Shown here in pieces: positions 54,231-55,186 of a DNA stretch of 64,000 nt. The number at the start of each line of letters is the position of its first letter. Position 1 is the first letter of the stretch. This DNA comes from Mucilaginibacter psychrotolerans (GTDB taxonomy: Bacteria; Bacteroidota; Bacteroidia; Sphingobacteriales; Sphingobacteriaceae). The stretch is taken from the NCBI RefSeq assembly GCF_004519315.1, contig NZ_SOZE01000002.1, positions 310,001 through 374,000 on the forward strand, given 5' to 3'. The position numbers were made by a program, and so were the translations under genes. The notes beneath the pieces are model-generated. The model saw only the letters and a list, made by a program, of their open reading frames with translations, ran no database searches and had not been told where the DNA came from.

Positions 54231-54265
54231 TAAAACAGCAAAGCCCCTGATGGGCAGGGGCCTTT
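54231..54265 (-). terminator. terminator of the tRNA-like RNA unit
   Basis: GCCCCTG (54243-54249) pairs with CAGGGGC (54255-54261), extended by AAA/TTT. The minus strand continues GCTGTTTTA. It lies about 35 bp past the second tRNA-like RNA (54300-54415) in the transcription direction. Confidence 0.75.
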
Positions 54266-54299
54266 ACTAACCAATTATAAACCTAAATTATGAGAAGAG

Positions 54300-54415
54300 C
54301 TGTAGGAGAAGGGGTCGAACCTTCACAGAGTGGTTATTCTTATTGCTAAGAGTTTCCCAGGATCTCCGCCACCGCGACAAGGAGGTGTGTCTGCCAAAAA
54401 TTTCACCATCCTACA
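54300..54415 (-). tRNA. tRNA-like RNA, copy 1, GUC anticodon loop and long branched variable arm
   Basis: Read on the minus strand from 54415: acceptor TGTAGGA pairs with 3' TCCTACA (7 perfect bp), with G as discriminator at 54300 and no encoded CCA. A 3-bp D stem (GTG/CAC) encloses a loop with TTTTTGGCAG. The anticodon arm is CCTCC-TTGTCGC-GGTGG, with U33, anticodon GUC, G37 and C38, and one U-U mismatch. The T arm GAAGG-TTCGACC-CCTTC is canonical. Between anticodon and T arm lies a 44-nt variable arm, much longer than in Leu, Ser or Tyr tRNAs. Its outer GAG/CTC and TGG/CCA pairs carry an inner TCTTA-GCAA-TAAGA hairpin. GUC, C38, G10 and G73 are the Asp identity elements known from E. coli. 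Decoding role not established. Confidence 0.7.
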
Positions 54416-54445
54416 GGATATAAACTAAACCTTGCGTTTAGCTTG

Positions 54446-54557
54446 CTGTTGGGGAAGGGTTCGAACCTTCACAGAGTGGTTAGCCCGCTTCGGGTTTTCC
54501 ATGATCTCCGCCACCGCGACAAGGAGGTGTGTCTGCCAAAAATTTCACCACCCAACA
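54446..54557 (-). tRNA. tRNA-like RNA, copy 2, GUC anticodon loop and long branched variable arm
   Basis: Minus-strand RNA starting at 54557: acceptor TGTTGGG with 3' CCCAACA, discriminator G at 54446, T arm GAAGG-TTCGAAC-CCTTC. The D and anticodon halves are identical to copy 1 over 48 nt. The 40-nt variable arm keeps the outer GAG/CTC and TGG/CCA pairs, but its inner stem is CCCG/CGGG instead of TCTTA/TAAGA, and the acceptor stem also differs while staying paired. These compensatory changes argue for a conserved RNA fold rather than decayed tRNA. A small hairpin (CTAAAC-GCAAG-GTTTAG) separates the copies. A consensus promoter lies about 50 bp upstream. Confidence 0.7.
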
Positions 54558-54604
54558 ATTTATTTTTTTTTAAAGAACAAACAGCAATTCTCATTTGCTT
54601 GTTA

Positions 54605-54636
54605 CAAATTTAAAGGACTTTGCTATTCCTTGCAAA
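54605..54636 (-). promoter_or_regulatory. consensus promoter of the tRNA-like RNA unit
   Basis: On the minus strand TTTG (54636-54633), a 20-bp spacer and TAAATTTG (54612-54605) match the Bacteroidota TTTG-N20-TAnnTTTG consensus exactly. It would start transcription near 54598, about 40 nt before copy 2. Confidence 0.75.
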
Positions 54637-54709: not shown

Positions 54710-55186
54710 ATGCCTCACAGGAAACCCCAAAATTTAGAAATTGACAATCTGGATATACAGATTTTGTCGATTTTGATGAAAAATGCAACAACTCCGTACA
54801 CGGAGATTGCAAAAGAGTTGATTGTTTCCGGCGGAACCATCCACGTTAGGATGAAAAAGCTGGAAGAACTGGGCGTAATAAAGGGCGCGAGCCTTGAAGT
54901 GAACCCGCAGAAGCTTGGATATGATGTTACTGCGTTTTTGGGCATCTTCCTGGAGAAAGGCTCGCAATACAACGAGGCCGTGAAACAGCTGAAAATGGTA
55001 CCCGAAATTGTGGAGCTGCACTATACAACAGGTAGCTGGAGCATCTTCGCCAAGATTGTTTGCCACGATACCAACCACCTGCGCGAAGTTTTGAACGAGC
55101 AGATACAAAGCGTAAAAGGCATACAACGTACCGAGACTTTTATTTCATTGGAAGAAAGCATAAAAAGGCAGATCACCTTGGAGTAA
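54710..55186 (+). CDS. Lrp/AsnC family transcriptional regulator
   Basis: 158 residues. The N-terminal winged helix-turn-helix has LDIQILSILMKNATTPYTEIAKELIVSGGTIHVRMKKLEELGVIKG. The C-terminal RAM (ligand-binding) domain has GYDVTAFLGIFLEKGSQYNE and VELHYTTGSWSIFAKIVCHD. Such proteins regulate amino acid metabolism as octamers or dimers. It is divergent from the tRNA-like RNA unit, whose promoter lies less than 110 bp away. A terminator follows. Confidence 0.94.
   Translation: MPHRKPQNLEIDNLDIQILSILMKNATTPYTEIAKELIVSGGTIHVRMKKLEELGVIKGASLEVNPQKLGYDVTAFLGIFLEKGSQYNEAVKQLKMVPEIVELHYTTGSWSIFAKIVCHDTNHLREVLNEQIQSVKGIQRTETFISLEESIKRQITLE

Follow-up and report, generated by a model that had tools for sequence, protein, structure and literature searches.

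What does a bacterium that has an ordinary tRNA-Asp do with two tandem RNAs that join a tRNA shape and an aspartate-type anticodon loop to an outsized variable arm? The question is raised by a locus of Mucilaginibacter psychrotolerans, which we analysed within a stretch of 64,000 nucleotides (contig NZ_SOZE01000002.1, positions 310,001 to 374,000), referred to here as the window.

Two tRNA-like RNAs lie in one transcription unit

The unit is read from the minus strand. An exact match to TTTG-N20-TAAATTTG was located at 54605-54636 and fits what we take to be the TTTG-type promoter consensus of Bacteroidota; no sigma-70-type site was found. Downstream lie copy 1 (54446-54557; 112 nt, acceptor strands UGUUGGG/CCCAACA), copy 2 (54300-54415; 116 nt, UGUAGGA/UCCUACA), a 17-nt tail, GGUUUAUAAUUGGUUAG, that follows the last copy (54267-54283), and an intrinsic terminator hairpin (54240-54264) whose T-rich tail extends to about 54230. 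A terminator search of the unit returned one terminator, compared to a mean of 0.4 in shuffled sequences. Direct reading of the sequence and this prediction bore out the preliminary description of a promoter, two tRNA-shaped RNAs, and a terminator on this strand.

In both RNAs, the acceptor stem pairs perfectly over 7 bp and is followed by G73, the D arm contains GG, the T arm is canonical, and a 7-nt loop, UUGUCGC, holds an anticodon-like GUC and C38 (loop at 54516-54522 and triplet at 54518-54520 in copy 1; 54374-54380 and 54376-54378 in copy 2). The anticodon stem of each contains a U-U mismatch, the variable region measures 40 or 44 nt, and the D arm and body resemble those of tRNA-Leu. 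Apart from the likeness to tRNA-Leu, this arm-by-arm layout had been described accurately, as had a stretch of 48 nt that is identical between the copies. Elsewhere in the window, parts of a group II intron matched Rfam RF02005 and RF00029 (42278-42867, plus strand).

ARAGORN predicted no tRNAs in the window, and a search of the window with Rfam at gathering thresholds gave nothing in the region of the two RNAs. At E <= 10, the unit drew only three weak, unrelated matches. When the whole genome was searched, copy 1 weakly exceeded the cut-off of the Rfam tRNA family RF00005 (33.2 bits, gathering threshold 29), and copy 2 was not listed. Beyond tRNA, no Rfam family matched this RNA. Bacterial Y RNA (YrlA) and tmRNA also contain tRNA-like domains; the RNAs studied here differ from both in keeping full acceptor and anticodon arms, and no YrlA or tmRNA match appeared in the Rfam searches of the window at gathering thresholds, of the unit at E <= 10, or of 10 of their loci at E <= 1. 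The family is apparently unnamed; the Rfam library used has no family of its own for it. No published description was found in the literature searched, which is no proof of its being unpublished. A blastn search of plasmids with the unit gave no match.

Folding energies of the single sequences were unremarkable (z of -0.09 for copy 1 and 1.00 for 54300-54412, a segment in which copy 2 lacks its three 5'-most bases). Because these energies are not unusual for the base composition, the case for a functional structure rests on conservation and covariation.

The RNA family is conserved across Bacteroidia

A DNA search recovered the unit from 36 of 37 genomes of the genus, a count that includes the window's genome, and from two other genera. 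Scanning genome contigs for an exact 19-base string returned 82 stretches, mostly from Mucilaginibacter, with some chance matches in Actinomycetota and others. We built a covariance model, R1, from 20 sequences, to which copies 1 and 2 score 129.2 and 124.2 bits, and bacterial searches with it covered the class Bacteroidia. Across 30 genomes, family members scored at least 90 bits and other matches at most 59 bits; one match below this gap was a truncated relict (52.7 bits). The five low-scoring R1 matches visible in the window's genome coincided with Rfam tRNA matches, one of them a tRNA-Leu and one a tRNA-Tyr.

In the window's family (Sphingobacteriaceae), 194 of 301 genomes were RNA-positive (best E < 1e-20) and 107 RNA-negative (best E > 1e-11), and 68 of 395 genomes of the class gave a match at E 1e-11, with absences that are not certain in either survey because Infernal's stricter filters were used. 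One of these 68 class matches is ordinary tRNA-like (L268), two are degenerate (L266 and L267), and one is doubtful (L259); the remainder fall in 18 families. Genome G063 carries five near-identical copies at a spacing of exactly 150 bp (L186:5005-5720), in a locus that contains no regulator gene, in addition to two copies located on other contigs; in G133, there are at least five copies. At L190:4900-5200, the 5' half of the RNA runs straight into a terminator-like hairpin, as a relict.

Compensatory change between the two copies had been taken as a sign of covariation, and homologues across many families of the class now rule out chance. Among 98 matches, in an alignment that was fitted to R1, which favours pairing, and that still includes doubtful rows such as L268, the seven helices formed standard pairs in 95.5% of cells. 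In this alignment, 25 of 32 pairs showed changes on both sides, with some in every helix, and L268 alone accounts for the single G-C and U-A variants seen at acceptor pairs 1 and 2. None of 500 shuffles scored as high, and slid controls reached 49-61%. An earlier, unfitted alignment of 20 sequences gave 92.0% paired cells and 12 of 32 doubly changed pairs. The inner helix of the variable arm covaries as well (93.8% of cells paired and 6 of 8 pairs doubly changed in 24 long-arm members) and surrounds a conserved internal loop and GGGUUGACCAC element. Building a covariance model, as had been suggested, and searching the class with it yielded homologues with compensatory changes in every helix. 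This is a real, widespread tRNA-like RNA family.

Position counts were made over 91 distinct bacterial members, a set that excludes L268, L182:5387-5440 (cut at a contig end), L266, L267, and duplicates and retains the doubtful L259. Among members, the variable region is 38-106 nt long, with a median of 54. C74 is encoded in all 91 members, as it is in each of 28 ordinary tRNAs inspected. The U-U mismatch reported for the anticodon stem is present in both copies and in members of the window's family, and most members elsewhere have a standard pair at this site. Four loci (L245, L257, L261, and L265) have a D loop enlarged to 26-37 nt. The promoter element recurs: TAnnTTTG was found within 150 bases upstream of 71 of 94 aligned members (shuffled mean 10.7), and the longer TTTG-N17-21-TAnnTTTG in 46 of the 94. 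In Mucilaginibacter, the arm contains CACCUCCUU, which in our view resembles the 16S 3' end; an anti-Shine-Dalgarno role for the arm was dropped, as many distant homologues have no UCCU there.

Aspartate determinants are combined with an amidation signature

The strong determinants of aspartate identity are G73, G34, U35, C36, and C38, and G10 is also listed (PMC9976931). U35, C36, G73, and G2-C71 occur in all 91 members, C38 in 90, and G34 in 88, with G34 lost in three. G73 and G10 had both been pointed out as Asp identity positions in the window copies; G73 proved universal, and G10, found in 28 of 91 members, is a local feature. Position 33 is U in 76 members, G in 11, and C in 4, and position 37 is U in 80, with a pyrimidine in 83 and a purine in 8. 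By these counts, the nucleotides that AspRS recognizes are preserved, and those favored at the ribosome (33 and 37) are not.

Both genomes of family f49 have lost G34 (loop CUCUCUC). Their loci, L328 and L329, include a second AsnRS-like frame that lacks the region matching the N-terminal end of the AsnRS model and which we presume may be an AsnRS-derived asparagine synthetase.

The first acceptor pair is U1-A72 in 91 of 91 members, so the G1-C72 pair of tRNA-Asp is absent, and nucleotide 20a is missing from all 91 (GGNA D loop). In the window's genome, the ordinary tRNA-Asp has G1, 20a (GGUUA), and the loop CUGUCAC, and tRNA-Asn has U1-A72. In bacterial tRNA-Asp, G1-C72 is strictly conserved and helps to place the acceptor end within AspRS; U1-A72 makes Asp-tRNA-Asn a substrate for amidation, while G1-C72 and U20a prevent this in Asp-tRNA-Asp (PMC9976931). 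Since all 91 members have U1-A72 and none has 20a, the family combines Asp charging signals with an amidation signal in one RNA.

The family therefore shares G34, U35, C36, C38, G73, and G2-C71 with bacterial tRNA-Asp and departs from it in having U1-A72 rather than G1-C72, no 20a, a mostly pyrimidine position 37, a U33 that is not strictly kept, a variable region of 38-106 nt, and a Leu-like body. It resembles tRNA-Asn and tRNA-Gln, the substrates of GatCAB, in U1-A72, in lacking U20a, and in its GatB-encoding hosts, but differs from them in its Asp anticodon with C38, its non-decoding loop, and its long variable arm. The D arm and overall layout are those of class II tRNA-Leu, from which the family is separated by G73 in place of A73, a different anticodon loop, a much larger arm, and the gap between 90 and 59 bits.

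The RNA co-occurs with GatB

With GatCAB presence judged by GatB alone, we compared 40 RNA-positive and 40 RNA-negative genomes of the class, as assigned by the R1 surveys. GatB was encoded in 40 of 40 RNA-positive and 22 of 40 RNA-negative genomes. Among the 301 genomes of the window's family, a tally made by hand from listings, in which GatB absence means not being among 206 GatB matches, gave 192 genomes with both, 2 with the RNA only (G086 and G204), 14 with GatB only, and 93 with neither. The 14 include all six genomes of genus g34 and three of g41. Genus g16 contains one genome with both RNA and GatB and one with neither. The association was also seen outside the window's family (GatB in 35/35 RNA-positive and 22/34 RNA-negative genomes, p 6e-5), by genus (RNA in 14/19 genera with GatB and 0/6 without, p 0.0026), and within genus g44 (GatB in 16/17 RNA-positive genomes and in none of three RNA-negative ones, p 0.0035), with p values that overstate independence, as the genomes are related and the counts are not phylogenetically independent. 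GatB looks necessary, but not sufficient, for the RNA.

AsnRS scored over its cut-off in 39 of 40 RNA-positive and 38 of 40 RNA-negative genomes. The RNA is therefore not needed for Asn-tRNA, and the idea that it stands in for a missing AsnRS was rejected, given AsnRS in 77 of 80 genomes; this presence of AsnRS also distinguishes RNA-positive hosts from users of tRNA-dependent amidation. AsnA was found at E <= 0.001 in 3 of 40 genomes of each group, with one RNA-negative match below the family cut-off. Both AsnA and AsnB (counted at E <= 1e-60) were missing from 5 of 40 RNA-positive (G063, G084, G133, G037, and G596) and 3 of 40 RNA-negative genomes (G064, G340, and G349). In the absence of an anticorrelation with AsnA or AsnB, simple replacement of asparagine synthetase by the RNA was likewise rejected. 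According to PMC4206432, some bacterial genera, including some Bacteroidetes, encode AsnRS, GlnRS, and GatCAB without asparagine synthetase; that paper suggests that, in delta-proteobacteria with all of these enzymes, GatCAB may be vestigial.

An AsnC-type regulator is a recurrent divergent neighbor

The gene at 54710-55186 on the plus strand, divergent from the RNA unit, encodes a 158-aa Lrp/AsnC protein (Pfam PF01037, E 2.4e-18). Its best NCBIfam match is AsnC, PRK11179 (180.2 bits, below the cut-off of 227; next best 86), and its best solved structure is E. coli AsnC, 2cg4 (E 4.1e-38; next 1.9e-21). By tblastn (E <= 1e-5, 36-88% identity), a homologue lies divergently 124-295 bp from the RNA at 48 of 80 loci in 15 of 20 families, a count that takes in several second copies and contig-end loci and in which L268 and L259 are the sole representatives of two families. 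None of seven loci in family f3 and none of nine in f63 has the regulator next to the RNA. When 29 loci were compared, with most RNA neighbors un-annotated, the AsnC-type regulator recurred in 22, followed by genes for a pyruvate dehydrogenase E1 beta-like protein (11) and a helicase resembling UvrD (8), both in the window's own family. At E 1e-25, a regulator homologue was present in 11 of 31 RNA-negative genomes; 8 of these are among the 11 genomes sampled from the window's family, and the other 3 (63, 55, and 45% identity) are among the 20 from other families.

In E. coli, asnC and asnA are divergent neighbors. AsnC activates asnA, and asparagine abolishes this activation (PMC4482635). The divergent AsnC-like neighbor suggests that the RNA gene may be regulated by asparagine.

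The tail GGUUUAUAAUUGGUUAG follows the RNA in many loci of the same family; at others, among them L188, L189, and L192, it is missing or changed. Allowing up to two mismatches, we found it only in same-family loci among those scanned. Eight RNA-negative genomes of this family keep the regulator, and five retain the exact tail (L288, L289, L290, L291, and L293); a variant was seen by eye in L287, and no tail in L286 or L292. L288 also retains a T-arm remnant, and in L289, L290, L291, and L293 a TAnnTTTG element and a hairpin could be read by eye together with the tail. One genome, G100, has a second tail copy about 470 bp from the first in the same locus (L194 and L161). The tail that persists without the RNA could be an independent small RNA.

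The preliminary description had also raised a regulatory role beside an Lrp-type gene. The neighbor is indeed AsnC-like and commonly divergent, and a regulatory role for the RNA itself is only a possibility, which we regard as unlikely: it might serve as a sensor or decoy for AspRS and GatCAB, or as an sRNA that base pairs through its tail, with the tRNA-like part stabilizing or sensing. Such a role would suit the adjoining AsnC-type regulator, the multi-copy arrays, and the persistence of the exact tail, four times with promoter-like element and hairpin, in RNA-negative relatives. However, the RNA is distributed far more widely than the tail, and the tRNA-type determinants and encoded C74 favor charging over mere mimicry.

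Viral contigs carry the RNA

In a scan of 2.9 million viral contigs, 110 carried the arm of the RNA (L330-L439), and R1 matched 80 of 80 viral contigs tested. With the anticodon loop left open in the search, 34 of 34 viral matches read YUGUCUC. U1, G2, C71, A72, and G73 were present in all 61 distinct viral sequences that could be parsed (2 of 63 could not). Among 20 contigs picked for scanning, 16 had one or more ordinary tRNAs in the scanned stretch, and a normal tRNA-Asp was present in 4. A tmRNA lay near a viral copy twice among the scanned contigs. A blastn comparison of two viral RNAs with named phages gave no match.

Discussion

From the conserved structure, determinants, synteny, and GatB co-occurrence reported here, we infer how this RNA would be expressed, processed, charged, amidated, and regulated by asparagine, and what would become of the Asn. 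We favor, with modest confidence, a non-decoding tRNA that would be aspartylated by AspRS and amidated by GatCAB, and that would serve asparagine supply or sensing under AsnC-type control. The RNA would be processed and CCA-tailed in the manner of a tRNA, AspRS would load it with aspartate, and GatCAB would turn the bound aspartate into asparagine. The divergent AsnC-type, asparagine-responsive regulator would control the RNA gene, and the product would feed asparagine supply or sensing and not codon reading; the asparagine might afterwards be freed as free Asn or be transferred. This reading is supported by the structure, the Asp determinants, the amidation signature, the non-decoding positions, the GatB link, the AsnC neighbor, and the encoded C74.

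Several observations speak against it. U1-A72 replaces the G1-C72 pair that normally aids aspartylation, and G10 is kept in only 28 of 91 members. There are also the two RNA-positive genomes in which GatB was not detected, the 14 GatB-positive genomes without the RNA, families f3 and f63 without an adjacent regulator, the three losses of G34, the AsnRS found in almost every genome of both groups, and the missing anticorrelation with AsnA or AsnB. AspRS belongs to the class II synthetases and makes contact on the variable-loop side, where the large arm of the RNA could clash. A further proposal is that the RNA acts as a dedicated cofactor of asparagine biosynthesis: aspartate would be loaded on a tRNA that never reaches the ribosome, GatCAB would amidate it there, and free asparagine would then be let go, all under the control of the AsnC-type regulator. 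We consider this possible but rather doubtful.

An amino-acid donor for non-ribosomal work was, among the roles first suggested, the one best supported by the AspRS determinants, by U1-A72 with no 20a, and by the co-occurrence with GatB. In its strict form, an Asp- or Asn-charged donor tRNA would pass its amino acid to a lipid, a peptide, a cell-wall precursor, or a protein N-terminus instead of contributing to supply. The same determinants, the same GatB link, and the non-decoding loop fit such a donor, and the long conserved variable arm could dock a dedicated transferase. The recurrent E1 beta-like and UvrD-like neighbors do not look like transferases, however, and transfer alone does not explain an AsnC-type regulator, so we judge this form improbable.

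A decoding tRNA-Asp (or tRNA-Asn) of unusual shape, also among the roles first suggested, is now strongly disfavored. The GUC anticodon would allow it, and viral copies near ordinary tRNA genes (16 of the 20 picked contigs, 4 of them with tRNA-Asp) would be in keeping with it, but a pyrimidine at position 37 in 83 of 91 members, a G or C at position 33 in 15, the U-U mismatch that the window's family shows in the anticodon stem, and the ordinary tRNA-Asp genes of the genome all argue against it. Least credible of all is charging by SerRS or LeuRS as a class II tRNA, with an irrelevant GUC loop: the Leu-like D arm and long variable arm are suggestive, and G73 and G2-C71 are among the Ser determinants given in PMC9976931, but that set also has C72 and C11-G24, compared to A72 in 91 of 91 members and U11 in 80 of 91 (C11 in 11), and GUC with C38 would be left unexplained. 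tRNA-Leu requires an A73 discriminator, against G73 in all 91 members.

If the proposal of a cofactor that releases free asparagine is true, bacteria would have an RNA-carried alternative to asparagine synthetase, one that some viruses also appear to carry and that would help to explain why GatCAB is retained where AsnRS is encoded as well. A non-decoding RNA for Asp-to-Asn conversion would provide GatCAB with its own substrate, which bears on the question raised by PMC4206432. The structured RNA family, present in 18 families of the class and in viral contigs, ties tRNA shape to amino-acid metabolism.
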